Source: Mya arenaria (Eukaryota; Mollusca; Bivalvia; Myida; Myidae). From it: 64,000 nt of DNA. The translations under genes were made by a program, and so were the position numbers. The notes under the pieces are model-generated. The model did not search any database. It saw only the letters and a program-made list of their open reading frames with translations, and was not told where the DNA came from. Positions 28,074-59,389 of the stretch are shown one piece after another. Where the stretch lies: assembly GCF_026914265.1 (NCBI RefSeq), contig NC_069133.1, positions 27,517,272 through 27,581,271 on the forward strand, given 5' to 3'. Each line of letters begins with the position of its first letter. Positions within the stretch are counted from its first letter, which is position 1.

Positions 28074-31000
28074 ATGAATATCTTTTTTACAGCAGCGACG
28101 TTTTACATTTTGTTATTTATATGTGATCATTTTGTCACAGGTATGGCTTTTATTTATTAATTCAATTGAATATTTAATTTAACTTATTTTTTTATCGACG
28201 TAAGTCACTTATTAATTTATGTAATCATTATTTATTTATATTAAAATAATTATTTTTATATTATTTTCATCTATTGGTTTACATATTCATATGTTTAATC
28301 GATTTTTTTTTCAAATATTAAAATATACGAAAAATTCGTAGCCTTTCGTTGTAACTTTTCAAGATTTGGATGTCATATCATAATATTTTTTGAGAATATA
28401 AAATAAATTTCTTTAGAAACACTGAAAGAAAAAAATAAATTATTTCAACAATAAAAAGCCGAGACGAAGTAAACGGTTTAAAATGGGATTATATGTATAT
28501 GGTTCAGTGATTTAATGTAAATGCATACGTACAGTGTTACCAATTTTTGTGACTGAAATGCACTTAAAAAGTAAGAATAATGAACCAAACATTCTGAGAA
28601 CAATCTTTTATAACCAAAGTGATAGGAATGGATGAGGTCGAAATATGGACGGATTAAAAGTTTTTATATGTTTCATAAAATTCTCATTTCTGTAAAGTTT
28701 TCTGTTAAAAAGGGCTATACAATTTTAGGGTCAGAAATATACTGATGTATTTGATTCATGTTAAAATGTTCAATAATTTAAGATATAACTGCATCGAGCA
28801 AAATCCAAACTCCTAAAATAAATTTTGAACATTAATAGAAAAGAATCTAACGATTTATGCGGTATGTATAATTAAAATAATTACCTCTTTTAAAAGTCTT
28901 ATGTACAGTGTCTACGTACTTTTGACGGTCCTTGCACATTTACATAATATGAAAATGTATCGATGTCGGCTTGTATGTTTTTGTATCGAAATATTCCGTT
29001 GTTTTAGAATCTACGTGAAAGATCTCATTCAAATTTGGAACATGTCTCAAAAATTAAAATGCTTTAAATTATTTTTTATAATTCTTATGTGGATCATTTT
29101 TACTTGAACACTTCAAACTATCGATCCATCCATCCATCCACGGCCACAGCATTACAAACACGTACGGCCGGTTTCTTAGTTTTAAGAGAAAAAACAGCCT
29201 CACTGTAACAATTATTACTTTCAGTCGAGGCAGCATCAGGCGAAAAAAAATTAAAGCTGGAGGCTCTGCCAGTGAATGGCTCAGATGATATAGTGTCAAA
29301 ACTGAGCGGTGAGTTTTCTATAAGCATGTGTTAATCTCGCTTTATCGTGATTAGTTTTCAGCAATAGTCCATGCGCCGAAGTTATTACACATATTATTCA
29401 AAAAAATGAAGGTAAAAAGGTATGAGAGATAAAAACAGGTTGCCTGAACTTCTGTCAGCTACATTTCAGTATTTCAAATCAAGCTTCCGGTGAATGCAAA
29501 ACGACGCATTGGAAGTGTGTCTCATTAGCAATATGATATTTTTTCCTTAACTCGTTTTATCACATGTACATAGATAAATTATATTTTAATAATTTGTTAA
29601 GTGTTTATATAAATATTTCTTCTTCCACATGAAACTAACGCTACAACGAAAATTATTTAAGCATGTTTTCTTTTCCAGTATCTGGGAACGGGCAACGTAA
29701 TGGTGAGACACTTAACATACATTTAATAAATGTTATGGTTTTTTTTAGCAAACACTAAACATGCTTCTTATTTTTTAACATTCACGCTAGAAGAAGCACA
29801 CCTCAAGCACCGTTGGTTCAACGGTGAATCTGAGTTGTGTCTGTGGTGTGTCGGTGCATTTGAACGAAAATTGAAGGTTATTGTTATTAGTATTTGGTCA
29901 TTTTCGTTGAATGCCGTTTTATTATAAATGCAGGTTTATAACCGTTTCTAAATACCTTGAGTCATTATCAGCAAAGAAAAACGCAAACTATAGTTTGTGA
30001 ATTTCGTCACTGAAAAGCTGTTATCTTTACAAAGTTTGCTCGTTCGTAAAAAATAGCTACAAAGATTATGAAAAGTGCAAAGATCAAGGGCGAACTCAAA
30101 CAAACTTGTTTTTACTATATAAATCCTTGAGACCAATTTCGACATTATCCCATGTTTTCACCAAGTTATAAACAGTCAGAAAATTTAGAATAACGTGAAG
30201 GCACTACTAATCTAAGGTGATCACTATTGCCAATGGCCGTAATGAACGCATAATCTGACCACACTTACGTGTTGTATATTTTGGTTTAAAATGATGTAAT
30301 GTTGAATATAAATTATCGCTCGTCGATAAGCCCCGCCTGGATCGTGCTTGTGGCTGTCTATAGTATCATTTGCCTTTCACAAATTAATAAATCGAGATTG
30401 AATTAATCTTGTGTAACATTTTGCTTATGATATTGTTTAAAGATATATGCCAATGATTGTTAAAGGCCTAGTTTAAGCCTTCTATAAGTGACCCCCACCG
30501 AAATCGGTGTATAGTACACAACCTCTGTGTATTGATCTTAATCTTATTGACTGGTGCCTTCTTATTAGATCTCCAATCTGAATATCCTGCTGTGCAGTTT
30601 TGGAGGTTTTATTATAATATTGGACCCTAAATGGCCCTAACCCAATAAACAAATATACAGGAAATTGGCCCCTACTGTGACACCAGTTCAATTAGCAGAA
30701 GATGCACAGCAGAGGATTATCATGCCAAACATTCCTTAAACAAGGCCTTTAAGATCTAATTCAAGTCCTTTTTGTGAAGTTGTGCGTCTTTGTTACTTAA
30801 ATCCTTCAGATCTTCATTCGTTTATGAGCAATATACAAGCTGATCTAGGGAGAACCCCCTAAAGACCTCTTTCCACGTTTAAGCCATCATAATCATACAA
30901 CAAAACTAGACATTATAAAAACCGATAAGGCCGACTCTACCAACGATATATACGCCGACCCCACCGTTTTATAGTCCGTTGTTAATATTGTTTTAATTGT

Positions 31001-34000
31001 GTGTTTTAATATGTAGCTTAAATAATTATGGTTATTGAAGATTACCTTAACGCCATTCCCCAATGATGGCAATTACGTTCTTACGTAAGGCCTAATATCT
31101 AAAAAAGCCAACAGGTCTACCCTACCTGTTTTTGAAAAAGATGTTACCCTAACTAAAGCATTTTTATTCATTTTTGGACTAAGCAGTAAACAATTTCATA
31201 ACATGAAAAGTTACGATTGTTTAGAACTTTGTTAAAGTTAACAACTTGATTTACAACATTGATGTTAATCTTTAACGTAAACTATTTGATGATGTGCTTA
31301 CCTTATTGAACATAAACACGTTAAGCTGAAACATTGTCTCAAATATTGTTAGAAATACAGCAGATCACAAGTGTATCCACTACACGTTCAGAGCCGTTAC
31401 GATTTGTTGACAACTTATACAAAGCCCTTAACAAATGCCTAAATGTCTTATAACTATTTTATCATATTTTAGCAATTTTATAAAAAAATAGTAGATTCAT
31501 GTGTTTTAGATTTTATTGGTTAGCTCATTAAAATAAGATGGCCCCATTTTACATATAGCCGCAAAAAATCTCGGCTTAATTTGTTTTCGAAAACTCATTG
31601 ACAATTTTTCGATATATTCAATACTTGCTGTTTTAAACTTGGCAAATAATAGGATGGCAAATATTTAACAAATATCTAACATCTTAAAAAATATTTATCT
31701 AAATAAATACAATTTTAATGAATCAAAAGCAATCGAGGATTTTTTATTGTTCATTCAATCATTTCCCCATGACACGGCATCAAGGAAGTTATATACATCA
31801 ACTATTCCGTTGGCCAACATAAGAGTCTTTTATCAAAAATTGGCATGTTGGTCCACTTTTTTGAGAAAGTAGCTGATATAATCATGTGTTTTAAACAAAA
31901 ATTATACATATCAAAGCAATGAAATAGCAATATAGTGAAATGGTGTTTGCATAGAGTTTTAATAAATAAGGGTTATCAGACAATTTGGGCAAAGTTTGAG
32001 TTTACAACCCACATGCCAACCCAAGGTGCATCGTCACATGAGCATAGTCTTATCATTGCATATCATTCCCCCTAAAAACGTTTTTCTATCTTTTTGTGAC
32101 AGCGACCTTAACCGTGAATCCATCAACCCTTATCTGATCGGTAGTTTAAAAGTATTTATTTGACAACGATTGAGAAACAAGTTACTACAACATTATTATA
32201 TGAATCACTCTCGATGGCACAATACTACGCGAGAGTGTTGTATTTTGATGTGGGGAGGGGGGCCGGAGTACCCGGAGGAAACCCTCTTGTCTGGCTTGGT
32301 GACCACAAACCAAACTGACACGCGCCCAGGGCGGGAATCGAACCCGTGACGCCTTGGTAAGAAGCGACTGCGCTCACCGGACAGACGATCGGACGGAAGT
32401 CTCTTCATGAGTTTGCAGTACCAGGTTTCATTACAATACATGTGCACCATAAACGAATATTATCCTGTCACTTACATACAAATCGGTCTAATAACAAGGT
32501 GCTGTGTAAATTTTAGTTTATTAGGACAGAAGACCACGTGATTTTAATTTACAGTCAGTTGATAATGTGACCGCGAAAATTGACTTTTTCTATTCTAAAA
32601 TGTCAGAGGAAAAGCATAAATAATGTTTCAGTATCTTATAAATAGTCCGCCAACAACCAACCTCAACAATCACTCGCCCATCAAGTCCAATAACTCTGCA
32701 TAAAAATGACACTGGCAAAACATCGGCCAGAAAATCTACATGTTTACTTACCCCACCCGCACATGCTAAGAACTGCAGCATTCAACGATAGCTAATTCCA
32801 TTTCTGTGGTGAATGACAAAATCTCACTTACAAAAGAAATGAATTATCTCTCTGCCGGTGCAGTTCTGAACATCCAACACTATCAACAAGAATTAAATCC
32901 ATTAACATATATATGGCGATTGTTTGTAAACACTCTTGATCTTGACCTGTGTACTGTACTCTGTGACTTGCGGAATAATTGTTAAATCGTCAGATAATGT
33001 TTGGTGACTAATCCATTACAATGCACTTTTAAAAGCTTTTTAATGTTTTGAATTGATATTGACGTATTAAAATGCACTTACTTTGACTATAAGCGTACTG
33101 AAAAAAGAGGAACAATTTTGAGAACAATTTTTTTTTTTTTTTGGGGGGGGGGGTTGAGGGGGGCGATTTAAACATGAATACCGAGTGTGCCGACGTCACC
33201 AGGAAAAACAGTTGTCCCCCTTATTTTTAAAGCTACTTAATAGTTTTAAGGTTATTTCAAGTGTTTAACAAACAAAGTAACAGGATAAATAGAATACTAT
33301 CAGACAAATTGGGCAAAGTTTGAGTTTTCAACCCAAATGCCAACCCAAAGTGCGTCCTCACGTGAGCTTAGTCTTATCATTGCATATCATTCCCCCTTAT
33401 AACGTTTTTCTATTTGTTGTGACAGCGACCTTGACCGTGACCCATTCAACCCTTATCTAATCGGAAGTTTAAACGTAATTATTTGACAACGATTGAGAAA
33501 CAAGTTATTTCAACGTTATATTAATCACTCTCGTTGGCACAATATTACGTGAGAGTATTGTATTTTGATAGGGGAGGGGGACCGGAGTACCCGGAGGAAA
33601 TCCTCTTGTCTAGCTTGGTGACCACAAACTAAATTGACATGCGCCCAGGGCGGGAATCGAACCCGGGACGTGTTGGTAAGAAGCGACTGCGCTCACCGGA
33701 AAGACGATCGGAGGGAAGTCTCATGAGTTTGCAGTACCAGGTTTCATTACAATATATGTACACCATTTCAGACTAGTATGTTATTGAGTGGAAACCGTTT
33801 CTTCGTCTTCTATTTTTGGTTATAGTCACACAGACCTATACACCAACAACCCCCATTTTATACGAGCGTACGACTCAAGATTACTGTATACATGTACACA
33901 GTTTTTTTAGGCTACGTCCTTTCTTAATAAAGGTATTGAGCGCAAATCGCTTTTTTTCTCTATTCTTGTTAAAATGAGCTTAAACTAACCACAACAACCT

Positions 34001-34761
34001 CAAATACAGTCCAAAGGTATGACTCCCTTGAGGTTGCAACACCCCAATGGCGTTTTTGTTGGTAATAAATAGTTTTGGTTTAACATCGGTTTCACGAGCT
34101 GTGTTTTGTTGTGACAGTTTCAAATAAAATGAAAACCTGTTTAATCATTTCATTTACAAAAACCAAAACTGGTTTTTGAAACTATCGAAACCCGTCCGAA
34201 GGCGATTTCGTCGGTTCGTACATCCAAAATTTTCACTTTGAAAAATCAACATGGCGGACAGTGATTCAACACGTGTGTCGAAACACCGTTTAGACATAAA
34301 AGACAATCGACCATCTGCAGTATCAGCGTATTAAAGAAACTCAGAAAATAAAGCTGTACACAAAACCATGCATTTGTTACTTTAAGCTTAACTTTCGAAA
34401 CAGGCTTCCAAACCACCGAAACCCACGAATACAAAACCGAAACTAGTTTGGTATCAACAAAAACGCCCTTACTTTAATAACACATATGTCTGGATATTCT
34501 CTTAAATGTTATTATATTTTAGGCAACAGAAACGATTACTGTAGTGGTGGTGGTGGTATGTATTGCCAAACCGGTACGTACTGCTGTTATAACGGAGGTT
34601 GCTGTGAAGACGGCTATGAATGCTGCAGCGCCGAATGGTGCTGCGGCGATTCCGGTGCTGCAGGACTAACGGGAAACATCGTAATGCTGCTGTGCTGCAT
34701 CACTGGCTACGTCCTTACGAGCATGGACAAAAACAATTCCATAAAAGATTTAACGCGATAA
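28074..34761 (+). CDS. Ten-cysteine type I membrane protein, gene 1
   Basis: Four exons: 28074-28140, 29225-29308, 29679-29702 and 34523-34761. All introns are GT-AG and phase 1; together they give 137 residues. Residues 1-22 are a hydrophobic signal peptide (MNIFFTAATFYILLFIC at its start). Residues 23-50 contain LPVNGSDD with an N-glycosylation site at N40. Residues 51-58 (VSGNGQRN) are the 24-nt micro-exon. Exon 4 encodes cysteines 65, 73, 79, 80, 85, 86, 92, 93, 98 and 99, then a membrane helix (about 104-126) and an 11-residue hydrophilic tail. The start is supported by matching ATGs in genes 2 and 3. Predicted orientation is ectodomain outside. The cysteine spacing begins like granulin but has shorter loops; Shisa-like adaptors are the alternative. 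I do not recognise a named family, and function is unknown. Confidence 0.82.
30464..30748. mobile_element. MITE family M1 in gene 1 intron 3, with empty site in gene 2
   Basis: 285 bp with inverted ends AGGCCTAGTTTAAG and CTTAAACAAGGCCT, flanked by TTAA at 30460-30463 and 30749-30752. Gene 2 has the uninterrupted target ATTGTTAAGATCTAATTC at 41785-41802, with one TTAA. The insertion is therefore younger than the gene duplication. Confidence 0.92.
31970..32455. repeat. Direct repeat in gene 1 intron 3, copy 1
   Basis: Matches 33297-33775: blocks GGGCAAAGTTTGAGTTT, CTTATCATTGCATATCATTC, CAACCCTTATCTRATCGG, then a SINE, then CATGAGTTTGCAGTACCAGG. Gene 2 keeps only the right-hand flank (near 42250-42320), so the repeat arose within gene 1 or was lost in gene 2. 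Confidence 0.8.
32163..32398 (-). mobile_element. tRNA-derived SINE family S1, copy 1
   Basis: On the - strand: a tRNA-like head with A box (GGTGAGCGCAGTCGC) and B box (GGGTTCGATTCCCGC), a body with GTGGTCACCAAGCC and CCGGGTACTCCGG, a terminal hairpin around CTCTCG...CGAGAG, and a tail ACAACGATTG in + orientation. Other copies lie at 33483, 46310, 50941 and 53440. The CCGGGTACTCCGG box recalls the central domain of widespread animal SINEs. Confidence 0.8.
33297..33775. repeat. Direct repeat in gene 1 intron 3, copy 2
   Basis: Second copy of 31970-32455, including its own S1 SINE at the same relative position, so the SINE inserted before this local duplication. A T14G10 tract (about 33127-33151) lies just upstream. 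Confidence 0.8.
33483..33711 (-). mobile_element. tRNA-derived SINE family S1, copy 2
   Basis: Carries ATCGAACCCGGG (B box complement), GGAGTACCCGGAGG and CTTGGTGACCACAAAC, as in copy 1. It lies within the second direct repeat of gene 1 intron 3. Confidence 0.8.
34049..34468 (+). mobile_element. Short DNA transposon with inverted ends and a 28-codon peptide
   Basis: The left end GGCGTTTTTGTTGGTAATAA and the complement of the right end, GGCGTTTTTGTTGATACC, form inverted repeats of about 30 bp with mismatches. Inside, at 34250-34336, ATGGCG opens a frame starting MADSDSTRVSKHRLDIKDN and closing after 28 codons. This may be the remaining first part of a transposase in an internally deleted element. 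The right end lies about 54 bp before the exon-4 splice acceptor of gene 1. Target duplication is not clear. Confidence 0.65.
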
Positions 34762-35054
34762 GTCGTGCTGAGTAGCTAGTAGTTTGTACATATATTTCGG
34801 TTTGCATTAAAAAATTAAGACTTCACGGCTGTTTGAGAATTCACGTGTAAAAGTAAACTCAATAATATTTTCTATAGTAAGATACTAAACTGCTTTGTTC
34901 ATTGATTGATTTCTAATATGTAGCGTGTTTTATGATTAAAAAAATCTGTGGTGCTTTTTCTTCCCCAACAAGTGAAATTGCGAAGCAGTGCTACTATAAA
35001 ACATACTATAAGTTTATTATACTCCACAAACATAGAAACATTAGGTCAATCCAA

Positions 35055-35060
35055 AATAAA
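35055..35060 (+). terminator. Candidate polyadenylation signal, gene 1
   Basis: AATAAA about 295 bp after the stop of gene 1, kept at the homologous place after gene 2 (43257-43262). AT-rich context lowers confidence. Confidence 0.4.
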
Positions 35061-35414
35061 GCAGTGACTTGATTTAAAGGGAAAACTTTAACACCCGTTA
35101 TTTATCAAGCGTCAAAGGTGACTGTATTTCATTGTTATAAACTAAGTATTAACTTTAAAATTAAAAATCCATCTATAAAAACAATCATAGTTGTCAAAAC
35201 CTTACCATTAATATATTTTATAATACTATTAACGGTAAAACGTCGACGCTATCGACGACAAAATAAGGATTGTTGATGCAAGGGCACAACTACTTTAATA
35301 TGACTAAAGTTTTGTTTCATGCTGTTGATTCATACTCTCACATGTTCAATGCCATGATATGACAGAATTATTTCGTCACAAAGTATACAAACCTTCAGCA
35401 AAACCCTGATAAGG

Positions 35415-35660
35415 ATTAACCATTGACTTTTATAACAACGGTCGGTTTCCATTGCTATCATATTCATTGTCTCTGGGAACAACCAACTGACAATGTCTTA
35501 ACTTCTAGAAATAGTATGGATTTCCCTTTACAAGGACACAATTTCTGATCAACCATCATAGTATTTGGCACTTATTTCATTAGCAAGCAGCAACATTCTT
35601 AATTAACTGATTTGTTGGTCATTTTTAATCCGATGAACGATATAAGGCCATTTTTGCCCT
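35415..35660. repeat. Dispersed repeat DR-A, copy 3
   Basis: Contains AACAACGGTCGGTTTCCATT, GGATTTCCCTTTACAAGG, TTAGCAAGCAGCAACATTC and AACGATATAAGGCCATTTTT, collinear with 121-400. It begins where the gene 1 duplication unit ends and abuts the LINE tail. Confidence 0.65.
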
Positions 35661-38600: not shown

Positions 38601-38990
38601 TCTCTCGACAGTCTGATAACCAGTGAAAGATATATCTTCGTAAAAGATTGATTATTTAAGCCATGTTTCAGAAAAAGCTATGATATCAAATCCATATACT
38701 TCAGACAAAAAATATACCATGCTTTGCAGACTTTGCATATTGTAATGGATTAATGAAACGTGGTGTTTTGGCAAAACAAGTTTTGACAAATCTGAAATGG
38801 ATTCTGTTGTACATGATGAAAATGATCCGGGACCAGGATTACGGTGAACATCAATGGCGGCAAAAACTGAGCCGACAAGTGCAAACCATAACCCGTTACA
38901 ACGAAGTTTTATTTCATTAGGCTGAAGTTTTTTTCCCAGTGAAAGGCGTTGAGTGTTTAACGTGTTATGCTTTAAGAGAAAACAGAGCTA
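35660..38990 (-). mobile_element. Near full-length but decayed LINE (CR1/Jockey-like) with 2A-like motif
   Basis: Read on the - strand. Near 38852-38829 is FAAIDVHRNPGPGSF, a 2A-like motif. The endonuclease domain follows: GFDIIAFSETWLK and SFTGYQTVERRDRPGDSHGG at about 38700-38560, then GETFYRPPNSS and DIIITGD at about 38450-38330. RT follows with GVPQGSNLGPLLF near 36910-36875 and LFADD at 36826-36812. The C-terminus has STHFFLHCPSYTDIRQIRDM near 36025-35965, the usual HFFLxCPxY block. The 3' end is the purine/T-rich stretch at about 35660-35690. Stops and frame changes are frequent, so it is inactive. It lies between the gene 1 and gene 2 duplication units. Confidence 0.88.
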
Positions 38991-40303: not shown

Positions 40304-42918
40304 ATGAATATCTTTATTACAGCAGGGACGTTTTGCATTTTGATAACTATATGTGAGCATTTTGTCACAGGTATGGCTTTTATTTATTTATTCAATTGAT
40401 TATTTGATTATTTTTTTAATTAATGAATTTATTTTTATCTATATAATTTTTCATTCATTGATTTATGTAATCATTATTTATTTATATTTAAATTATTTGT
40501 CTATTTATCTTTTTTTTGTATCTATTCGTTATCATATTCATATATTTTAATCGATTATCATTTTTTTCAAATATAAAATCATACGAAAAAATCGTAGTCT
40601 TTCTTTGTAACTTTTCAAGACTTTAATGTAATATCATAATATTTTTTAGAGTATAAAATAAAGTATTCCTTTAAAAACACTGCAAAATAAAAAGAAATAA
40701 TGCATTGACTTTTGGTCTTTCAAAAATTAAACGCCAAGACGCAGTAAACTGTTTAAAACGGGATACTATGTAAATGGTTTAATGATTTAACGTGTATGCA
40801 TATGTATAATTCTACCAATATTTGTGACTGAATGTACTTAAAAAGTAAGGGTAATGAACCAAACTTTCTGTTTTAAGCGAAAATAAAAATGTATCCAGGC
40901 TCACTGTAACGATTCGAGTATTATCATTTTCAGTCGAGGCAGCATCAGGCGAATGGCATTTAAAGCTGGAGACCCTGCCAGTGAATGGTTCAGACGATGT
41001 AGTGCCAAAACAGGGCGGTGAGTTTCTTCTATCATGTCTTATAATCCCTGTAGCGTGATTATATTTCATTTATTGATAGTCCATGCGCCGAAGTTCATAG
41101 CCATATAATGTAAAATAATAGAAGATAAAAAGGATTAAGGTGTGAACGATGAAGAAGATGGCGTCAACTTCTGTTCACTACAATTCAATATTTCAGATCA
41201 AGCAAGGTTTTACGCAGCGTCTTACTTCCGGTAAATAAAAAAGAAGTATTGGTGTAGTTTAATACGATAATTAAATGTCCTGCATACATTTTATGACATG
41301 TGCACAGATAAATGATATTAAACATTTTTTTTAAGTTATCAACATGAAACATACGCACAACGAACATTATTTAAGCATGTTTTCCTTTTCAGTATCCGGG
41401 AACGAGCAGCGTAATGGTGAAATACTTAGCATGTATAAATGAAGCCTTTTTTTAAGCAAACGCTATACATGCTTCTTACTTTTAAAGCTGCACTCATACA
41501 GAATTAACACTTTCACCACTGTTTTTTTTTTGTCTTCAAACGAGCCAATTTATACAAAAGTGCAAGAAAGCCAGTGATATAAAACTGCTGACAAAACATC
41601 AGATCGCCGATTTGCATAGCTAAGTTCAAAACATGATGTTTTATGCATTTTTCTTAAACCGTTAGTGACTCTTCAGCCATAAAACAATAATTTTCGAACA
41701 GAAATATGAAAATCTGCGATCTGATATTTGGTCAGCAGGCTTATATCACTAGTTTGCAGCTAATGGTATTATTTATGACAATAATTGTTAAGATCTAATT
41801 CAATTCCTTTTTTGTGATGGTGTGCGTCTTTGTCACTTCATTCTTCAGATAATTATTCGTTTATGAGCAATATAGGGAGGACCCCTAATGCCCTCTTGAA
41901 ACGTTTAAGCTATTATAGACATAGAATAAAACTATGCATTATAAAAACCGGTAAGGTCGACCCTACCAACGAAATAGGTGCCGACCCTACCGTTTTCATA
42001 AGTCGTTGGTAATAGCTTTTTTAAAGTGTGTGTTTTATGTGTAGTTTAAAACCTTTAAAAAGTTATACAGAAGATCACTTGAACGCCATTCCCCAATGAT
42101 GCCAATAACGTTCTTACATAAGCCTAATAAAAAAGAATAAAAAAGCCTACATACCCTGCCTGTTTTTGGAAAGGATGTTACCCTAACCAAACAATTTTTG
42201 TTTATTTTTGGCCTTAGTAGTTATCAACTTTATAACATGAAATGGGCCGATCGGACTTAAGTCTCTTCATGAGTTTGCCACACCAGGTTTCATTTAGAAT
42301 ACATGTACACCATTTCAGACTTAGGTATGTTATTTATAGAATAATACATGGTTGACCATGGCTTTTGGTTGATAATTGCCCCAGTGGAAGGAATAATTGC
42401 CCGATTTTTACTGGGACAATTATTAATCTAAAGCCATGGTTAAACATGTGTTATCCTGTATAATGGATTTAAATATTATTTTGTGGAATAACGAAGGAAA
42501 TGTCATATTGTATGTAGTCTGAAAGTTTTAAAAATGAGAAATAACAAAATGGTCTTGAATTGAATTAGCTGTGAAAAAAACGAGTGACTGAAAATCAAAA
42601 TAACAAACCTTTTCGTAGTTTAAACGGAGTTTAATAACACACATGTCTATGTATTCTCTTAAATATTATTATACTTAAGGCGACGGAGCCGTTGACTGTG
42701 GTGAAGGTTATTATTGCCGAACCGGTACGTACTGCTGTTATAACGGAGGTTGCTGTAAAGACGGCTATGAATGCTGCAGCGCCGACAGATGCTGCCCCAA
42801 TACCAGTGCTGCAGGACTGACAAGGTCGACACTGGGAAACATCATGATGCTGCTGTGCTGCATCGCTGGCCACGCCATTGCAAGCATGAAAAAAAACACA
42901 CACAACAATTTCATATAA
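40304..42918 (+). CDS. Ten-cysteine type I membrane protein, gene 2
   Basis: Exons 40304-40370, 40934-41017, 41393-41416 and 42680-42918 have exactly the lengths of gene 1 (67, 84, 24, 239 nt), with phase-1 GT-AG introns, giving 137 residues. Signal peptide MNIFITAGTFCILITIC; linker with LPVNGSDDVV; micro-exon VSGNEQRN; core DCGEGYYCRTGTYCC, YNGGCC, KDGYECC, SADRCC; helix beginning at about residue 105 and ending near HAIAS; tail KKNTHNNFI. The exon-4 acceptor (ACTTAAG) has a weaker pyrimidine tract than in genes 1 and 3, a small doubt about splicing strength. Gene 1 and 2 proteins differ mostly at the start of the core and in helix and tail, while the TGTYCCYNGGCC stretch is identical. Confidence 0.8.
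41486..41785. mobile_element. MITE family M2-related insertion in gene 2 intron 3
   Basis: Starts after TTAA (41482-41485) with AGCTGCACTCATACAGAA. Its interior (AAAATCTGCGATCTGAT, TTGGTCAGCAGGCTTATATC) matches 53755-53805. The right end is worn. Absent from gene 1 at the corresponding place, so it too postdates the duplication or was lost there. Confidence 0.6.
42339..42463. mobile_element. Foldback element in gene 2 intron 3
   Basis: The left arm (ATAATACATGGTTGACCATG, then GCTTTTGGTTGATAATTG) and right arm (CAATTATTAATCTAAAGCC, then ATGGTTAAACATGTGTTAT) are inverted copies of about 40 bp around a short loop. Likely a small MITE; the transcript would form a hairpin. Confidence 0.65.
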
Positions 42919-46894: not shown

Positions 46895-47194
46895 GTCTTA
46901 GACCACGTGAACTAAAGCGAGGAGGTTTGGTTCTTGTTCTTCAAAATAAAGACTCATAAAATCCGAATACCATTTAACTTTGTATTGCGCAAACAATGCG
47001 TATTTGGGTTTGGCTCAATTACTCAAATTTCTATGGTTAGATAATTAATGTTTACCTTACACATTGCAAGGCAAGGAATTTTAACCTATTTGCCAGAACT
47101 GGAATTGCCGTATCGGAATTCCATTAAGAGTCCAAGGACGGAATGGGTTTGAAACGGGTGGTCGAAAAACTAAATTGAATATTATTATTAATAT

Positions 47195-48005
47195 TTACTT
47201 TTGAATGTCCAATGTCCAATGTCATGCCAGCACAACATTCACTTTTGAATGTCCAATGCCCGATGTCGTGCTTGCACGACTTTCACTTTTGAATGTCCAA
47301 TGTCCAACGTGGTGCCAACACGACATTCATTTTTGAATGTCCAATGTCGTGCCAGCACGACTTTCATTTTTGAATTAATGTCTAATGTCAAATGTCGTGC
47401 CAGTACAACATTCACTTTTGAATGTCCAATGTCCAATGTCGTGCTTGCACGACTTTCACTTTTGAATGTCCAATGTCCAACGTGGTGCCAACACGACATT
47501 CATTTTTGAATGTCCAATGTCGTGCCAGCACGACTTTCATTTTTGAATTAATGTCTAATGTCGTGCCAGCAAAACATTCGATTTTGAATATCCAATGTCC
47601 AATGTCGTGCCAGCACAACATTCGATTTTGAATGTCCAATGTCCAATGTCGTGCTAGCATGACTTTACTTTCGAATGTCCAATGTCCAATGTCGTGCCAG
47701 CACAACATTCATTTTTGAAAGCCCAATGTCCAATGTCGTGCTGGCACAACATTCATTTTTAAATGTCCAATGTCCATTGTTGTGCCAGCACGACATTCAC
47801 TTTTGCATGTCCAATGTCGTGCCAGCACAACATTCGATTTTGAATGGTCAATGTCCAATGTCGTGCCAGCACAACATTCGATTTTGAATGCCCAATGTCC
47901 CATGTCGTGCCAGCACAACATTCATTTTTGAAAGCCCAATGTCCAATGGCCAATGTCGTGCTGGCACAACATTCGATTTTGAATGTCCAATGTCCAATGT
48001 CGTAT
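47195..48005. repeat. Minisatellite of about 43 bp with higher-order blocks, about 19 units
   Basis: The unit contains ACATTCATTTTTGAATGT (a near-palindrome), CCAATGTCCAATGTCG and TGCCAGCACAA. Units vary between 35 and 46 bp. A block of four units at 47256-47430 is repeated almost exactly at about 47430-47600, so there is a higher-order period of about 173 bp. Open frames of 60-98 codons on both strands come from the low stop content of the unit. Confidence 0.93.
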
Positions 48006-48261
48006 GTTTAGCTAACTTCACACAGCTTTGGGTAGCTTTTAAGACGACATGTTCCTGTAATCTACAAAAACGCCATTTTAGAAAATAGTACATCACCTAC
48101 CATATATACGATCTTCATGGACAATGTTTTAGATAGCTTTGGTGACAGTTATTTTTTTAATGATTTGGCACAAACTACTTAAAAGATGTTTATAAAAAAT
48201 GATACGAAGAATATCTAAATAAACAGGATATATGCAAGTTAATCGTCTGCTAGCATCACGT
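48006..48261. other. No supported feature
   Basis: Unique-looking AT-rich sequence between the minisatellite and the LINE tail. Confidence 0.5.
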
Positions 48262-49330: not shown

Positions 49331-50940
49331 CCAGTCATCCTGCAATTCTGCCGCCACTTTTTGGCACATACTACACATAAATATTAAAAAAATGAACAGT
49401 ATTACAGGAAAAATTAAATCAATTTTTTTGGGTAAATTTCATTATTTGACCTTGAAATAAATTTGACCTTGACGTTGAATTAGGTAAGGTTATATGTTAA
49501 TTTAAAGAACGTTATGAGAAGAGTCATATCCAGGAAATGTTTCTCCTTATATTCAATCAGTACACATTACTGAACTGGAAATTTATAACAGCCATCTTTT
49601 TTAGCTTATGCTGAATATTGATTGTTGGTACACTATTTTGAATATCTCCATGGTAGCAGCATATAGGGTGCATTCAAAAAAAGAAATTGATAGCACATAC
49701 GAAGCAGCTCAATCTGGTACATATATAAGCTGGTTACACATTATCATTTTTAAATGATTAAAGAAAGAAACCAGTCCGATAGTGTAGTTTTCTCAAAATT
49801 AACATTTTGACCTCTAAAATGACCTTGATCTTGAAAATATAAAATGTATATAAACTTGAATCTGAACAGTAGTGAGAGTATGTATATGTTTTGGTTTTAA
49901 TATTAGCTTTCAAAATATCTTAACAACCCACTATTTGATTGTATATATATTGGCGGCCATTTTCAACACCATATTGAATTTAGCAAATTCGCAAGAGCCG
50001 CCATGTGGCCAAAGGCACTTTTCATAAACAATGGACATTCTCCTATCGCAACATATATTTATTTTTTTGGTATAACATGCCGGATACTTTTTTTCCAAAA
50101 TGAGGACTTGGAACCTGGACTATAAATGATATGAGATCACGTCTAAAAATGCACGAACAAAATGCGAGATTTCGTTTAAAGTACCGCGTATCCTTTTTTA
50201 ACTTGAGGTGGGCTTTTTTCAAAGCAAAAAAAAAAAAAACTCCCCTATGTCTCTTATGAACATCATTGCTTCTTCGCTTTTTCGTGTCCACATGTGAGAT
50301 GCTTTTCTTCATAAAATAGTCGAAAAAGAGGAAACATGCAAGGATGTACAATGAAACCTCGTTTTTTTCTTTGGGAATTTCAAAGGGGCAATTACAAAGA
50401 CGCGATGGCCATAATAGGATTCCGTACTATTTAGATAATCAGTCGTGTACGTATAAGTACTGATGTACAAACTATTGCTGACGTTGAATGATGATATTCC
50501 TACATTCAGAACACCTCGTCGACGAAACAACCTCGGATATATAATTATGGATGGTTTTATACAATGTCAGCAAGAAGATCGCATATGAGTACTTTCAATT
50601 TAGCGGTTTAACCTAAGGAATTTACTCTGCAATGAAACACTTTACCGGCAATCAATTTGATCTTAGTAATAAAAATACACGTTAAAACACTACATTTATT
50701 AATTATTATTGTTTTACTTTTTCTTCTTCTTTTTCTATGAAATATGGCCCAAGTCTCCTTATGGCGGTTTGGCGCTGTCTTGAGCCCTCGTTGACAGGTA
50801 ATCCGATTGCATATTTCTAAAATCAAAATAGAACTGGTAAATTTTATATGGAAACACCCAAAAGCGAACGTCACATAGAAGCAAATGTTTAAGTATGCTA
50901 TAATTGAGATTGAAAAACTCTTAAGTTTAAACATATTAAG
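49331..50940. other. Intergenic with an old two-copy repeat
   Basis: Segments near 49420-49500 and 49790-49870 share TTTGACCT, ATGACCTTGA and TTGAAAATA-type phrases and GAGAGTCATATCC-like surroundings, suggesting an old tandem repeat of about 350-370 bp. Frames at 50043-50961 on the - strand have no recognisable motif. Confidence 0.45.
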
Positions 50941-51173
50941 TTTACAACGATTGTGAAACAAGTTATTGCAACATTATATTAATCACTCTCGTTGACACGA
51001 TGTTATGCTAGAGTGTGGTCTTGTTTTGTTGGGGAAACCGGAGTACCCAGAGGAAACCCACTTATCCGGCTTGGTGACCACAAACCAAACTCACATGCGC
51101 CCAGGCCGGGAATCGAACCCGGGTCGCCTTGATGAGAAGCGAGTGCGCTAACCACTGCGCCAAACGGACAACC
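50941..51173 (-). mobile_element. tRNA-derived SINE family S1, best-preserved head
   Basis: The - strand head reads GTTGTCCGTTTGGCGCAGTG then GTTAGCGCACTCGC (A box) and GGGTTCGATTCCCGG (B box), followed by TTTGGTTTGTGGTCACC and GGGTACTCCGGTTTCCCC. The tail near 50945 is ACAACGATTGTGAAACAAG in + orientation. Too degenerate in stem pairing for a working tRNA. Confidence 0.85.
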
Positions 51174-51261
51174 AAACTTGAACAACTTTTCAATCACATC
51201 ACAAAGGTTTGCTGATCTATTTATCGGTAGTTATAATTCTAGCTTCTTGATAATATAAGTA

Positions 51262-51400
51262 TCTTCCATGACCGAGAGTGTAAGGTTCATTCCGACCCGA
51301 GCGTAGGGTGTTTTGCGGAAACGAGGTTTACCGAGTTTCCGCAAAACACCCTGCGCGAGGGTCGGGATGAACCTATCTTATACGAGCGGCTATGGTAGAT
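51262..51400. repeat. Long hairpin (inverted arms of about 65 bp)
   Basis: The arms carry GGTTCATTCCGACCC and GGGTCGGGATGAACC, then GGGTGTTTTGCGGAAAC and GTTTCCGCAAAACACCC, around a centre at about 51327. Far richer in GC and CpG than its flanks. Confidence 0.85.
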
Positions 51401-51850
51401 GCTTTTTCTCCCACCTCAGTTAAACAAAATTAAGTAAAAATGTATTTTTTGCTGGAACTCTTTTTTGCTTAGTAAAAATAATTGCGTATAGATATTTGAT
51501 AGCGCGTGGTTGTCATGGATATACGCGCACTGATCCAGTTAATGTTAATAGTCAAATCGGTCTTTTTTAATAGTTCTAAGAAGAATGAAGCATTATTTCT
51601 TGAATGGTGCCTGAAAACTGTTTTATGGTGACATTTGAAGCGAGAAATAATTAATTAGCGTTCTAAATATTACCATAAGACAAGATTTCCTTGATGCTAT
51701 TGACGACAGTCTTCAACAAGGGAGGTAATTACAATGTGATAAAAGGAGTTCCATACGGGCATTTTATCTTCGCCCGTGGGCAAGATAAGATTATCTAGCA
51801 TGGTTAAGTTATTGGATCTACTTATCTGAGGTGGGAGAAACATGTATCTT
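51398..51850. mobile_element. MITE-like element with TTCTCCCACCTCAG ends
   Basis: Left end TTTTTCTCCCACCTCAG (about 51404-51420) and right end CTGAGGTGGGAGAAAC (about 51827-51842) are inverted. It directly adjoins the long hairpin, and the two may be one element. Non-coding. Confidence 0.6.
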
Positions 51851-52150
51851 AACATTTGGGATTTGAATAGATTCACGCATCATTCAATGCGAAAACATAC
51901 GGGAATTCATTGCTTTCAAAGGTTAAATGTTATTTAAGGATAACCGATGCTCTTATTTATTAAACGGTTTAGTTTGCTTCTTATTTCAGTAAAAATGGAG
52001 GGGTAATTTAACAATTTTATTGAAATTTGACGCTGTCTTTAGTCAATCTGGCTATTTGGTGGTATTTTGGCAAAACGAAGGTGTTTTTTCAGATGGATAT
52101 AAACTTCTCGTATATGAATGTAGAAACTTTTTATATTAGTGATTAAGTAA

Positions 52151-52151
<1 letters not shown>
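51851..52151. other. No supported feature
   Basis: AT-rich spacer before the trinucleotide array. Confidence 0.5.
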
Positions 52152-52187
<36 letters not shown>

Positions 52188-52252
52188 GTAGTGGTGGTGG
52201 TTGTGGTGGTGGTATCGGTGCTACTGCTCCTGTTGATCGTGATTATGTTTGT

Positions 52253-52293
<41 letters not shown>

Positions 52294-52389
52294 CGATGAT
52301 GATGATGATGATGGTGATGTTGCTGATGTTGCTGCTGCTGCTGCCGCTGCCGCTGCTGCTGCTGATGATGATGACGACGAACGACGACA

Positions 52390-52432
<43 letters not shown>
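52152..52432 (+). repeat. Compound trinucleotide microsatellite
   Basis: Successive blocks of ATG, GTG, GGC, GAT, GCT and again GAT repeats over about 280 bp, all related by single-base steps. Frames on both strands (poly-Met/Val/Ala and poly-Ser/Ala/Thr) are artefacts of the repeat. Confidence 0.95.
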
Positions 52433-52909
52433 AAACTATCTTCAACATTGTGAAGGAATATTGAACAGCTAATGTATAAAGAAATCAGCAGTTTAAGCAC
52501 TGAACATTTCAATTAGTTGTATAATCACTCAGCGTTAATGTCAACACTTTGATTACACATGTCTTCATAAATAATAAAACATGAGAATAAACACGTTCGC
52601 TGTGGAAATTTAAAGCATTCATTAACAGAATGTTAAGTGTATTTATTTGACAATTTTTCAAAAAACCCAGCCCGATCCATGTTTACGTTCAATGTATATT
52701 CACATTTAATTGAGGACTTTATATACAATGTAGACAATTGTCTATGATGAGATTTGTCCGATATCTAACTGATCTCGATTTTACCCAATATTTCGTCAAA
52801 TATTCGGAGCAGTGGAAAAACTGTCTTAAAAACATAGGTAGCTCTTCTTTATCGGTCACTGTTCATTCATAAGTTTATATTTTTTAATTATTTAGTTAAT
52901 TATAAATAA
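52433..52909. other. No supported feature
   Basis: AT-rich spacer; only frames extending out of the microsatellite. Confidence 0.5.
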
Positions 52910-53045
52910 TGTCTGCGTCTGGATGTCTGTCTGTAATTCTGTCTGTCTGGATGTCTGTCCGCCCGCCAGCCTGCCTGCAAGGCCTGCCCGGTCTATCTGT
53001 ATGTCCGTCTGTTCCGTCCGTCCGTCCGTCCATCTGTCTGTCTTT
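52910..53045 (+). repeat. Imperfect (TCTG)n/(TCCG)n microsatellite
   Basis: Tetranucleotide runs of TCTG and TCCG with interruptions. Confidence 0.9.
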
Positions 53046-53089
53046 TAATTTGTTGCAAGTATGTGAGTTCTTCGGTCTGTCTGCATACG

Positions 53090-53400
53090 CCAAAATGGTA
53101 TAACGCCTCACTTGTAAACACGTGATCCTGTGTTTGTTTCCCGGACTTGCCGTACATTTTTCCGAACATGTGCCATTCTGGGCCCGATGAAAGGCCGTGA
53201 CTGCACTGTTTGGCAGAACAACGCCCTCTTAGTATTGAAGTGTGCACCCATAGCACTCCTGAAATTCGAAGACGAATTTTTCGTTGAGAGAAAATGTGAT
53301 AAGACCATCAGGGGTTACTCTTTAAATATAGGGACACACTGTAAAAACAGAGCTAAGGGTTCTAATACATAAGATATAAATCACAAACAAAGGTGAGCTA
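53090..53400 (+). repeat. Possible second SINE type with tRNA-like head
   Basis: ATGGTATAACGCCTCACTTG resembles an A box and GTGTTTGTTTCCCG a worn B box (GGTTCGATTCC). It is followed by CCGGACTTGCCG and about 250 bp of moderate-GC sequence ending near 53390. No second copy in the window, so the class is tentative. Confidence 0.35.
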
Positions 53401-53439
53401 GGGACCGGCCAATGTTTACATATTCATTAGTTTAAACGT

Positions 53440-53680
53440 TATTTATTTTACAACGATTGTGAAGAAAGTTATAATAGCTTATACTAAGTCGTTCTCGTTG
53501 GCACGATGTTACGCGAGAGTGTGCTCTTATGTTGTGGGGGAAACCGGAGTACCCGGCGAACACCCACTTGTCCGGCTTGGTGACCACTAACCAAATTACA
53601 TGCACCCAGGCCTGGAATCGAACCGGGGTCGCCTTGGTGAAAAGCGAGTGCGCTAACCACTGCGCTATCAGGACAACCAT
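53440..53680 (-). mobile_element. tRNA-derived SINE family S1, copy 5
   Basis: The - strand head has TAGCGCAGTGGTTAGCGCAC and CGGTTCGATTCC; the body has GGTCACCAAGCCGGACAAG and CGGGTACTCCGGTTTCCC. The tail in + orientation is TTTACAACGATTGTGAAG. Confidence 0.85.
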
Positions 53681-53689
53681 ATATATTGG

Positions 53690-53879
53690 AAATGGAGCTA
53701 GGCCGCAGTCCGAGAAAGCTCGCACCAAAAAACGCATAAAACAATTTTTGAACTTATGTATAAAAATCTGCGATCTATTTTTTGTCAGCAGTCTTATATC
53801 ACTGGTTTCCATTGACTTTTGCAAATATCGTATATGTAAAAGTTGTCAAAACGTTCCATCTGTGAGAGTGCAGCTTTAA
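53690..53879. mobile_element. MITE family M2, right part
   Basis: The right end CTGTGAGAGTGCAGCT abuts TTAA at 53876-53879. The interior AAAATCTGCGATCTATT and TTTGTCAGCAGTCTTATATC matches the insertion in gene 2 intron 3. The left end is not found next to the SINE. Confidence 0.6.
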
Positions 53880-54774
53880 TGGTGAACATAATAGTTGCCA
53901 ATGCTTTTTTATAAGCCGACTCATGACGTAAGCTCAAACAGTCGCTAGACAACCAAGGCCTTAACAGACAATCATAGTTACTTCACAAATGCGCAGAGGA
54001 CTGTACCAAGTCACGTAGACCAACCAAAATAAGGTCCATGAAAAAAAATGTTGAATTCACTGTCACATCTCCGTTACATGATATGTAGCTACGGCAAATG
54101 GGTCCAGTGAGAAAATAAGCCGCTGGGAAAAAAACCCAAAATATTTCTCTGCAAATTGACTATCTAGACCTTCGCTCTCACCCTTTATCCCATATCGGTC
54201 ACAACTAAAAATCCCAAACCGCATAATCAGATAACTTAATTTACAACTTAATCGAAAATGTTTTCGTAATTCAATTTCGTTTTTATATTGATTTAACCAT
54301 TATGAAACTAAACAAAAACGGAAACACTACATGCCATGAGTTCTCATACAAAAAAAAAAAATTGTGGAAAAGTAAAATATAATCCCGTTTCCGAACCATA
54401 ATACAATGTATGTAAGTTTGGAGTAATCGAAGCGAGGAAAAAAGAGAGGCTAAAATGCTATTAAAACAAAGATATTGCGTTTGACCCTTGGTGTCATAAT
54501 TTATTTTTCACATAAATGTTTAAGTAATTGAGTTGGGCCGATTTTGTTCGGGTAGAAATGGAACCATTTAATATCTTAGCTTTTGCCTTATTGCTAGATC
54601 AAAGGAAACAATCTTGTTTGCCTACGTTTTTATTGGTATTCAATTAAGGACTTGTTATTTCATTTTTTGAAAACCAGTTTCTCGCTTTACGTTTTCAAGG
54701 ATTTTGATCATTTTGATTTAAAGGCAGTTGATATATTCTGTTCTGCAAGCTTACTGGCAAAACGTGAATCTAAA
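53880..54774. other. Upstream region of gene 3, nothing recognised
   Basis: No clear TATA box at the spacing used by genes 1 and 2. The upstream block shared by genes 1 and 2 is not visible here, in keeping with gene 3 being the older paralogue. Confidence 0.45.
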
Positions 54775-57700
54775 ATGAATATCCTGCCTGCAACAGCGAT
54801 GGTATGCATTCTGCTGGCATGCAGAGGTAGGATAATTTATTAATTAATAAGTAAATTTATTTGTTTAGTAATTCATTACTTCTTTTGTTAAATTACCTAT
54901 ATATTTGTGTTTGTTCGTTCGTTCGTTCGTTTGTTCGTTCGTTCGTTCGTTTATTCATTCATTTATTAATTATTTAATTCATTTATTCGTTCTTTCGTTG
55001 ATTTCGATCATTCATTCAAACGCTCGCTCGTTCGTTTGTTCTTTCGCTTGTTCGTTCGTTCAATCATTCATTTATATTTAAATTAAGATCCTTTTATCAG
55101 TCATTTATTTATTTTCTTCATATCACTAGCAACGACGTTGCGTTTGAATTAAAACTTGTGTCTAAGAAAATTCCGAAGCGGATTGTATTTTTTGTTTGAT
55201 GATGAGAACTAAAATACTTCAACAAGCCATAAATATGACATTGGAAATTATTATTGTTATTGTTCAATTTATCTTTTTCTACTATTTTTTTCAAAGTCCG
55301 GGCTGAGTTCGAAGACCAGGAACTCAAAATGGAAAGACTGCCTGTGAATGGAACGGATGACATAGTTCCCAAACAAGAAGGTGAGACTTAAAGAGGAACA
55401 ATATAAGTTGATGCAAAAACAAATAAATATATATTTTAATGCATTATCGCGTTGAACTCATTTGACGTCAACGATCAATACAAAAAAGGTAATGATTTGT
55501 AGTACAGTTAAAACAAATACTAGCGATTGTTTGCGTTTTTTTAAACAAGGGAAATTGAGGCCGAGAAGCTTTTAATTGAAAAACGACATGTATACAGGTA
55601 TTGTTTTTTTATATCTGTAACCAGTTAATATAGATAGATATATTTTATTCCTCCAAGCTTTGATAATTTAAGTCAATTGAATTAAACATAATAATGCATT
55701 TAATTTACATTTTGCATCCACCTATATTGTGCGCCTCACATGCGTCTGAATCATTGTTTGTCACTAAAATGTTGATAAAATCACCACCAGAAACAACTGT
55801 ATCAATCTTCAAATTAAATCCTCTTTAGCCGGCCATTTTCCTGACAAGTGCTCACATGATGTCCTTGAAATGTACATATGAACATCTTTGTACCGGCTTG
55901 TATATGAGCCACATCACCGAGGATGGGTCAAACACTCTTCTTTGGAGGTGGGTCAGAATCATCTGAGCACTTGTATGTTTAATATGTGCTTTATTTGAAA
56001 CGACTATTAACGCCGTACAAATGTAAAATGTTTAAAGGCCTAGTTTAATCCTTCTATAAGTGACCCCCACACCTCCAACCCCCCACCCACCCCAAACCGT
56101 GTACTGTACACATCCTCTGTGTATTGATCTTAATATTATTGCCTAATTGTCTTATCAGATCTCTGATCTGAATATCCTGCTGTGCAGTTTTGGAGGTTTT
56201 ATTATAGAAATGGACACTAAAAAGCCCTGAACCAATAAACAGGAAATTAGCCCCTACTGTGACATCAGTGCAATTAGCATAAGATACACAGCAGGGGATT
56301 GTCATGCAAATTATTCCTTAAACTAGGCATTTAAAACCTTTGAACCAAAGCTGATTAAAATATGCCCGGCAAATGGGATGACATGCAAAGTGTACTGGGC
56401 CTAATAAAGAACTTCAGATGAACATAACCCCTTCAAACAGTAATTTGGTATCAAATAAACAAGGTTTATGTTTGAATTTTAGATTACTGGGCTTGTCCTT
56501 GAAGTTTTTATTCTATCATTTGTATAACATGCAATTAAAACTAAAAAGGGTATTATATTATTTTGCAGTATCAGGGAGTGGAGCTCGCAACGGTAAGACA
56601 TTTAAAAATATTCAATACAAGGTTTGTGTGTTTTTTTTCAGTTCAAGTCTTCACATTGAGTACAAATCGATTATAATAGTATTTTGGCATATTTTTTTCT
56701 TTCACAAAATGCGGACAAACAATTATTCAGTGATCAATAGAAATTGTTAACCACAGCAAAATTCTATTTAATAACCGAATCCTTATTGATACAGTCCCGG
56801 TGTGTCATGCAGATGATTTTCGAGCCTCATTGTCAGTTACGAATTTTGAGCGTTGCATTGTTTAATATTTAAAAAAGACGCCATGAGACTCAAAATTACT
56901 CATTTCTTCATAATTGATATCAGCCGCTAGCCTAAGGTTACTTTTAGAACACTTTCAAATTCATAAGTGTATTTTATGTAAAAATTATAACATATATTGT
57001 TAAATTGAATGCTGAAGAAGGGCAAAGCGAACGAACTATTCTTAGGCTTAATAGATTACCTAATACGTTAATAATGTCTTAGATTATGTAATAGTTAAAT
57101 GACATTAAGTAAAATCTTAATTCTTATGAATGGGCGGTATGAGCGTAACGAATGAGCTCGTCTTAATCACTAAGATATAACTTCAGGTCAACTTACTGAC
57201 TTAGAATACAATCCCATTGCCTGACACATTATTAACACACAATCTGCCGTAGTCCATATAAACAGCCGCTTCAGAGTCTTTGACGATTTTTGTTTTGGCG
57301 ACTCTACGCATTAAGGGAACAAAATGAATATCCAAATTTAAAATAAGATCCCTTAACGCGCATTATTGTTGCTAAAAAAGTCAAAATTCTTATGATTAAG
57401 TCTAGTACTTAATGATTGCCTGTCTGTAATTTCATTGGCTGAAAATGTAGGTTGTATGCTTAAAGTGACACTCTTATTGAAAATCAATACATGTATATAA
57501 ATTTTGTGAAACACCTTTAACTACTTACTAATTAATGCATTTATGGTAAATATTAATTACTGATAACAAGATTGTAACCGTTTATTTAATAGCTGAAAAC
57601 GCAAACATATTAAATGATTGGTGAGTGCTAAACGATTCACTGTGATCTACTATCGTCTCATAAGGTAGAAATACCATGTTTACTGCGTCGTTCTTTTAAA

Positions 57701-59389
57701 TTACTCTCGGTATCCTTCATAAGGATAATTGTTTTCGACTTTTCGATATTTATTCATCCTTTTTGGTATACCAATACTATCAATAATTGTGGTAATTCTT
57801 ATAAGGTAGTAAGAGTGCATCTTTAAGCCTGTTTAAGGCGGAGAACTAAATAAGATAATGACGCCATGTCTGGTAAGTTAAGCTGTGACTTTACTAACGA
57901 TTAAGCGTGGTACTTATTGAAGGCCGATTGATGATTTCATTGACTGGAATGTAGTATATATTCTTTGTATAATGAGAGTTATCGTATTGTTTTAAAAAGA
58001 AGATGTCTGCCGCTGGAGTCTTAACTGTAAACCTGGCCCGTTTTAATAAATATCGAAAGGCTTAGTTTCCAAGCGTAACGAGTGTACATGAGCTCTCTAA
58101 AGCAGCTTAATGTTATCAAATAAGAACTTTTACTAACACGGGCCATGCCCGAATATCACAAAAATACTAAGTCAAAACTCAATCTTAGACTCAACTGATT
58201 TTACCACATAACATTAAACGTTATTGAAAAGTTTTTACACCTAATAAAAGTGCATTCCCTTAATACCATTCTATAACCTCCTATAGAAAACAACAAAATA
58301 AATAATTTTCAATGGTATTATTTTGGAAGTCTCAGTGAAGCGATTTGGGAAACTGATTAACACATACAGCATAAACTTGCAAAATGTGCAAAGTATATCC
58401 GGTTAACAACGTGCTTGCAAAAACAATACAGACGTGGTCGACTGGCCGAGAAAAAAACTGAGATAAAACCCTCCTTCTGGGGAAAACTCAGAAAACTCTG
58501 CCGGTTTGTCATCCAGATTTACAGGATTTGTCTCGTACTACTAGATGTCGGGCCTCATCACTCATAAGCTCCTTAACAATGATGTATAGAAAACATCATT
58601 TTTATTATTCATGTATACGTACTATCAAATTATACAAGTGTCAATTACAACGCTATGTATACAAGTGAGAACAAATATATCATTCATATGATGAAATTGA
58701 ATAATGACAGAACACTTTCACCTTAAATATTAGCTTGTAAAATTAAATAATCAATTGCATCGATGTGAACGTATCGGCTTCTCAGCGCTGAACACCTTTA
58801 CATTTATATGCGCACGAAATACTCGTGCATATAAATCACTCGTGCTTATAAAACGCCACCTGGCGGTTATTCCATTACAAACAAGGGAAAATAATTTTCT
58901 TCCAATTCGTTTTACTCAAACGCAGGAAATAAAATTTCACTCATGGAATATGTTGATTAAGAACTTGTTTGATACCCAAGCAGATTATTAGTTTGATTAG
59001 AAAACATTTAAGTTGCCATAAATAACCACTTCCAAAATACATCAGAGACCAGTTTGTCCACGTGGGTATATATTTTTTCTGTATCTCCGAGATCAAATTT
59101 GCCTCTGTAGTAAATGTATGGGGACCTACACGTAGCATAACTGAATATATAAATGTATATTTCAGGCAAGCGAACTGACTACTGCGGTGGCGGTTTATAC
59201 TGCCAGACTGGTACCTACTGTTGCCATAACGGCGGCTGCTGTAGAAACGGCTGGTCGTGTTGTTCTGCCACCACATGCTGTGCCGGTGCCGCGGGGCTAG
59301 CAATGTCTACACTGGGACACGTCATGGTGATACTGATGTGTATCTTTGGCTACTTCGTTGCCAATTTGGACACGCACAATATTATGTAA
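54775..59389 (+). CDS. Ten-cysteine type I membrane protein, gene 3
   Basis: Exons 54775-54826, 55297-55380, 56569-56592 and 59166-59389 give 127 residues; all introns are phase 1 with GT-AG ends. Exons 2 and 3 have the same lengths as in genes 1 and 2 (84 and 24 nt). The signal peptide is short (MNILPATAMVCILLACR). The linker has LPVNGTDDIVPKQE, keeping the glycosylation site as NGT. The micro-exon reads VSGSGARN. The core is YCGGGLYCQTGTYCC, HNGGCC, RNGWSCC, SATTCC, then a helix from about residue 92 (LGHVMVILMCIFGYFV) and tail ANLDTHNIM. An in-frame extension upstream of the ATG is open, but ATGAATAT aligns with the other two starts and the upstream sequence does not. The exon-1 donor (GTAGGA) is less standard than the others. 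Confidence 0.82.
54901..55075 (+). repeat. Degenerate (GTTC)n/(ATTC)n microsatellite in gene 3 intron 1
   Basis: Repeated TTCG and TTCA tetranucleotides, partly decayed. Confidence 0.9.
56036..56330. mobile_element. MITE family M1 in gene 3 intron 2
   Basis: 295 bp, left end AGGCCTAGTTTAATCC, right end CCTTAAACTAGGCA, flanked by TTAA at 56032-56035 and 56331-56334. Interior GAATATCCTGCTGTGCAGTT is shared with copies 1 and 2. Confidence 0.9.
57464..57822 (+). mobile_element. MITE family M3 in gene 3 intron 3
   Basis: About 359 bp between TTAA at 57460-57463 and 57823-57826. Left end AGTGACACTCTTATTG; right end AGTAAGAGTGCATCT is its imperfect inverse. Best-preserved of the three M3 copies. 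Confidence 0.82.

Follow-up and report, generated by a model that had tools for sequence, protein, structure and literature searches.

A 64,000-nucleotide stretch of chromosome C12 of the soft-shell clam Mya arenaria (C12:27517272-27581271, here called the window; genome 1.216 Gb) contains three genes, g1, g2 and g3, that belong to a tandemly multiplied family of small proteins with a predicted signal peptide, a cysteine-rich core and a single predicted helix. The first-pass annotation of the window had proposed such a family, and our analysis supports it. The core holds ten cysteines and is under purifying selection across the family, which is apparently restricted to the Mya lineage and undescribed within the literature searched. 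We tentatively propose, at somewhat less than an even chance, that its members are stalked, disulphide-stapled type I surface glycoproteins that would act by extracellular binding or recognition.

Each of the three genes has four exons on the + strand (Table 1), joined across GT-AG introns that are all in phase 1. The fixed lengths of exons 2 and 3 (84 and 24 nucleotides (nt)), the strand and the intron phase, all claimed in the first-pass annotation, were borne out, and annotated proteins match the exon joins. The translation of g1 equals NCBI protein P0001 (LOC128212201) letter for letter, and that of g3 is identical to P0004 (LOC128212362 isoform X2). Because g2 without its exon 3 is exactly identical to P0002 (LOC128212280 isoform X2), the 24-nt exon is annotated as a cassette in g2; its use there is a matter of annotation, not of measurement here. 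According to the Mya genome paper (PMC10663159), its own annotation was made with MAKER plus RNA-seq. A further gene model, MAR_015460 (P0003; window 27381-59682), joins exons of g1, g2 and g3 to a first exon that is antisense to a broken copy and, at 59596, to one more exon at the 3' end; we set it aside as merged (chimeric). Inspection by eye past the g3 stop suggests a possible intron in the 3' untranslated region (window 59389-59595), with a donor-like AAG/GTACAC and an acceptor-like TTGCAG at 59595. A search of the window for the DNA pattern of CC-x-NGG-CC gave 3 matches with zero mismatches and 5 with three or fewer; shuffled sequence gave a mean of 0.16 and at most 3 at the latter threshold.

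Table 1. Positions of family members and of a broken copy. Plain numbers are window positions; C12 and C13 mark chromosome positions. Signal peptides and helices are predicted.
Feature	Position	Strand	Remarks
g1 exon 1, signal peptide, 67 nt	28074..28140	+	
g1 exon 2, linker with NGS sequon, 84 nt	29225..29308	+	
g1 exon 3, micro-exon, 24 nt	29679..29702	+	present in P0001
g1 exon 4, 239 nt	34523..34761	+	ten-Cys core ~34540-34644, hydrophobic helix ~34660-34716, short tail, stop
g2 exon 1, signal peptide, 67 nt	40304..40370	+	
g2 exon 2, linker with NGS sequon, 84 nt	40934..41017	+	
g2 exon 3, micro-exon, 24 nt	41393..41416	+	skipped in annotated isoform X2
g2 exon 4, 239 nt	42680..42918	+	ten-Cys core ~42697-42795, hydrophobic helix ~42832-42888, tail, stop
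g3 exon 1, signal peptide, 52 nt	54775..54826	+	
g3 exon 2, linker with NGT sequon, 84 nt	55297..55380	+	
g3 exon 3, micro-exon, 24 nt	56569..56592	+	
g3 exon 4, 224 nt	59166..59389	+	ten-Cys core ~59183-59281, hydrophobic helix ~59312-59368, tail, stop
g1-g7 array	C12 27545345 to 27638085	+	
g8	C12 27950383-27947203	inverted	
g9	C13 21365528-21362699		other chromosome
Broken inverted copy, 3' part of exon 2	27400..27459	-	acceptor and 5' part lost
Broken inverted copy, exon 4 tail part	25645..25761	-	preceding cysteine core lost

Searching the whole genome with exon 4 of g3 identified 13 places with E no higher than 10. The family accounts for nine of these (E 1e-45 to 5e-10); the other four lie at E 5.9-6.7. 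Exon 4 of g8 recovered the same nine, plus four places at E 0.68-1.65, two of which are proteins with LDL-receptor class A (LDLa) repeats; copies more distant than those found with these two queries may exist. The nine exon-4 copies comprise seven in an array on C12, one (g8) inverted 309 kb further on, and one (g9) on C13. Eight copies have four exons, and all eight share an exon 2 of 84 nt and an exon 3 of 24 nt. Exon 1 measures 52 or 67 nt, that of g8 being taken as the nearer of two candidates from a scan, and exon 4 is 215-239 nt. The product of g9 equals P0006, and g6 matches P0005 apart from the last codons.

Seven of the nine copies have open frames. In g4 (C12:27601054-27601277) a TGA replaces the tenth cysteine, so that a product, if expressed, would end before the helix; the copy may be dead or may encode a secreted form with nine cysteines. 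In g5, exon 4 is open and an exon-1-like piece lacks a donor at the aligned place; exons 2 and 3 were not found between that piece and exon 4. The window also contains an inverted broken copy (25645-27459, - strand) that has lost its exon-2 acceptor and its cysteine core, and an 18-nt piece resembling exon 3 was seen by eye near 27013-27030. The first-pass annotation had described a family of three genes; these three stand, the inverted broken copy had been missed, and the count of exon-4 copies in the genome is nine.

The signal peptide and the membrane helix were predicted from hydropathy, which is 1.45-2.29 for the N-terminal segment and 1.57-1.99 for a 19-residue C-terminal segment in 5 of 5 proteins. 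Between them, the core has the spacing C-x5/7-C-x5-CC-x4-CC-x5-CC-x4-CC in each of the first five proteins (x7 in g1), and g7 has one additional residue after the second cysteine. An N-glycosylation sequon is found at the aligned place in the linker in seven of the eight four-exon copies, g7 being the exception, and the tails of the seven open-frame copies are about 1-14 residues long. When eight exon-4 copies are aligned, g4 being omitted because of its stop, the columns that never vary are the ten cysteines and three glycines. The two motifs singled out earlier as conserved fared less well: LPVNG(S/T)D is not family-wide (LTVNGAS in g7, LAVNRSH in g8, QPANTSS in g9), and g7, g8 and g9 also differ from TGTYCC-xNGGCC. 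The mean number of residue types per column was 1.8 in loop b, 1.75 in loop c, 3.0 in loop d and 3.75 in loop e (seven copies, g4 and g7 left out).

We compared substitution rates at two depths. For the youngest pair, g1 and g2, the nonsynonymous rate (dN) was 0.196 and the synonymous rate (dS) 0.170 over the whole coding sequence, a ratio of 1.15; dN/dS was 1.25 in the core and 1.42 in exon 4. The fraction of bootstraps with dN<dS was 0.315 for the whole coding sequence, 0.369 for the core and 0.146 for exon 4, so the ratios are not separable from 1. Six codons differ between the two cores, all six changing the amino acid and none silent, and 10 of 10 cysteines are retained; in a neutral simulation of this pair, all ten were kept with no stop in 3.6% of runs. 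Against g3, the whole-coding-sequence ratio was 0.19 for g1 and 0.31 for g2, and synonymous sites in the g1-g3 core are saturated. A codon model fitted to the seven open copies gave an omega of 0.266 for the core, 0.405 for the linker, 0.598 for the part after the core, 0.488 for exon 4 and 0.527 for the whole; omega = 1 was rejected in each case (p = 5e-8, 3e-5, 0.018, 1e-6 and 1e-8, respectively). The model has a single omega and is blind to single sites under positive selection. A core dN/dS near 1 had been named beforehand as what would speak against the family: g1 and g2 taken alone show no constraint, and the seven copies together show it clearly.

Candidates within E limits of 1, 10 and 10 in protein searches (5.77 billion proteins) numbered 3 of 21, 4 of 4 and 4 of 5. 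Taken together, these searches yielded six distinct proteins, each listed under Mya arenaria and the merged model P0003 among them. No relatives outside Mya were found among the 5.77 billion proteins; distant ones can be missed because the search needs shared 5-residue words. The exon-4 part had no Pfam match in any of the eight copies scanned, and scans with Pfam and NCBIfam gave nothing at curated cut-offs. Lines for MliC, GRP, DUF4692 and DUF4656 were below cut-off and off the core, and we took them as noise. A literature search found no paper naming the six locus tags searched and, among the matches listed, no account of a family of this kind in bivalves. Lineage-restricted families of small, cysteine-rich surface proteins are common.

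We infer the topology, the disulphides and the role of the stalk from these features; the recognition function is a guess. The first-pass annotation had suggested that families of this sort often serve in immunity, signalling or at the surface, and such a role is conjectural here too. The signal peptide would send the chain into the endoplasmic reticulum, and a short N-glycosylated linker together with the cassette micro-exon would form a stalk. Skipping of the micro-exon would shorten this stalk by eight residues and leave the frame unchanged. The core of about 35 residues, whose cysteines run C, C, CC, CC, CC, CC, would probably be closed by five disulphides, and one glycine-rich helix would serve as the membrane anchor, leaving a cytoplasmic tail (~1-14 residues) too short for a signalling motif. 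The binding module could recognize a ligand, a microbe or a neighbouring cell; its variable face would be formed by loops d and e, which separate the last three CC pairs. We favour extracellular binding because the tail appears too short for signalling, the cysteines keep a constant frame and the outer loops can change.

Several observations weigh against this proposal. The exons of g1 and g2 show no greater conservation than the introns and flanks of the same genes (82.4% for exon 4, 82.1% for the 3' flank), and 3 of 10 copies are broken (the g4 stop, the lost exons of g5 and the inverted relic), which also fits little constraint. Structure models were poor: the mean predicted local distance difference test score (pLDDT) from AlphaFold2 was 53.4 when the whole of g3 was modelled with five rows and 64.6 when the core was modelled with three, and Foldseek with either model matched zero PDB chains. 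A glycosylphosphatidylinositol (GPI) signal or a secreted form may also apply. The first two points, together with the g1/g2 ratio of 1.15 and the finding of no relatives outside Mya in the proteins searched, would be expected if these were young, weakly constrained orphan genes drifting to loss and the pattern reflected recent duplication only. We consider this quite unlikely: the core omega is 0.266 over seven copies, all ten cysteines are retained even in g7, the most diverged copy, and few neutral runs for g1 and g2 (3.6%) end with ten cysteines and no stop. An antimicrobial peptide precursor, either membrane-anchored or released, is distinctly unlikely. The proteins are small, cysteine-rich, fast-changing, tandemly arranged and from a bivalve, and weak defensin lines appear in the PDB profile searches with alignments A4 and A7; however, the charge of the core is not consistently basic (loop d reads EDGYE, KDGYE, RNGWS, LHGWT or PHGWS), all open copies have a helix after the core, and no defensin family matched. 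Least probable is a trafficking adaptor like Shisa (STMC6), in which a luminal cysteine-rich domain would hold or sort receptors in the secretory pathway. The traits of STMC6 proteins are given as a signal peptide, C*C*CC*CC and a single helix (PMC5578492). Shisa, CYYR1, VOPP1 and WBP1 share these with the clam proteins, whose first six cysteines are arranged in this way, but the clam core has four cysteines beyond those six, the seven open-frame copies have no PY motif (PPxY/LPxY) and almost no tail, and the four-aromatic motif is not seen in the helix. The Pfam profiles Shisa, CYYR1 and WBP-1 gave no match, and hhalign to CYYR1 gave 1.7% with an alignment outside the core.

The core could also be a highly derived LDLa repeat that has lost the calcium cage and the sixth cysteine, with extra cysteines forming CC pairs, disulphides replacing calcium and ligand binding kept. 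We regard this as unlikely. In a PDB profile search with alignment A7 (seven core rows), 11 of 12 sequences at E up to 10 were LDLa-bearing receptors (best E 0.013). LDLa proteins made up 7 of 9 matches with A4 (best E 0.047) and 2 of 3 with A3 (best E 0.0093), and other searches gave LDLa receptors in 1 of 1, 2 of 4 and, with the five-protein alignment A2, 7 of 8. Two column shuffles that preserved the cysteines served as controls: in one, none of 4 matches was of LDLR type (best E of any kind 0.87), and in the other, 3 of 8 were chains of TMPRSS2, counted as an LDLa carrier, at E 4.3-5. Because these controls were much weaker, the likeness, as judged by profile comparison, goes beyond cysteine spacing. 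Five cysteines of the core and of LDLa share the spacing x6, x4, x6, x5, the G, F/Y and W/Y landmarks match, and permuting the columns in a comparison with an LDLa consensus gave p = 0.008. Like LDLa, whose exons have phase 1-1, the core would be an extracellular module of phase 1-1. Two weak matches in the clam genome, from the g8 search above, are LDLa proteins as well.

On the other side, the best E across alignments ranged from 0.0093 to 0.18 and none passed 0.001; with A2 it rose to 0.18. Comparison with a clam LDLa by hhalign gave a probability of 2.8%, and Pfam matched LDLa in 0 of 8 members scanned. LDLa repeats carry an acidic calcium box around their last cysteines, also visible in one clam LDLa; in the clam core this box is absent, CC-AGAAG or the like following in A4, and the helix comes directly after. 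Five of the six LDLa cysteines overlay and the sixth is missing. A permutation result of 0 of 20,000 is biased, its targets having been chosen by the search itself. We treat LDLa descent as a lead, not a membership. Extending it, one could picture a clam-specific module in which an LDLa-type repeat was rebuilt, with calcium dropped and paired cysteines holding the fold, then attached to a membrane helix and amplified, its exposed loops changing fast and its cassette micro-exon setting stalk length; we rate this as unlikely too.

Membership in other known systems was rejected on the features tested. For CYYR1 and Shisa-like proteins these are given above. Granulin/epithelin has the same order of cysteines (C, C, CC, CC, CC, CC) and a CxxGxxCC, but its loop lengths differ and the clam core lacks the last two cysteines (ten versus twelve); Pfam PF00396 did not match, a granulin control did, and hhalign gave 24.6% over ten columns only. 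The schistosome micro-exon genes likewise combine a signal-peptide first exon, micro-exons of a length divisible by 3, a long last exon and a small secreted or membrane product. Their definition (PMC4671649) has a central coding part made mostly of micro-exons under 36 bp, whereas each clam gene has one 24-nt micro-exon beside an 84-nt exon, and a structured cysteine core. The automatic name of MAR_015460, chitin-binding type-1 (hevein), looks unfounded: it sits on a chimeric model, and no Pfam match to chitin-binding type 1 was found at E up to 1.

Elsewhere in the window there are two copies of a rhodopsin-like G protein-coupled receptor (7tm_1) on the + strand, inside blocks that are 81.7% identical (699-3577 and 8804-11732). 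The copy at 10414-11673 is an open frame of 419 residues, and that at 2374-3569 is split over two frames. Minisatellites occupy 12357-13004 (35 bp, 18.5 copies) and 47193-48003 (44 bp, 18.8 copies), and a tRNA-Thr(AGT) lies at 19833-19907 on the - strand. A dispersed repeat of ~230 bp, its copies 78-90% alike, is present at 32142-32378, 33465-33697, 50923-51153 and 53428-53658; it includes a tRNA-like stretch (ARAGORN call at 53602-53674) and is possibly a short interspersed nuclear element.

Mya arenaria is studied for its transmissible cancer, and its genome holds an undescribed, apparently lineage-restricted family with a strikingly fixed gene architecture. The family mixes strong long-term constraint on ten cysteines with neutral-like change in its youngest pair, and its broken copies make birth-and-death turnover visible. 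If the LDLa link is true, the family would clearly exemplify a recognition module in which disulphides have taken the place of a calcium site.

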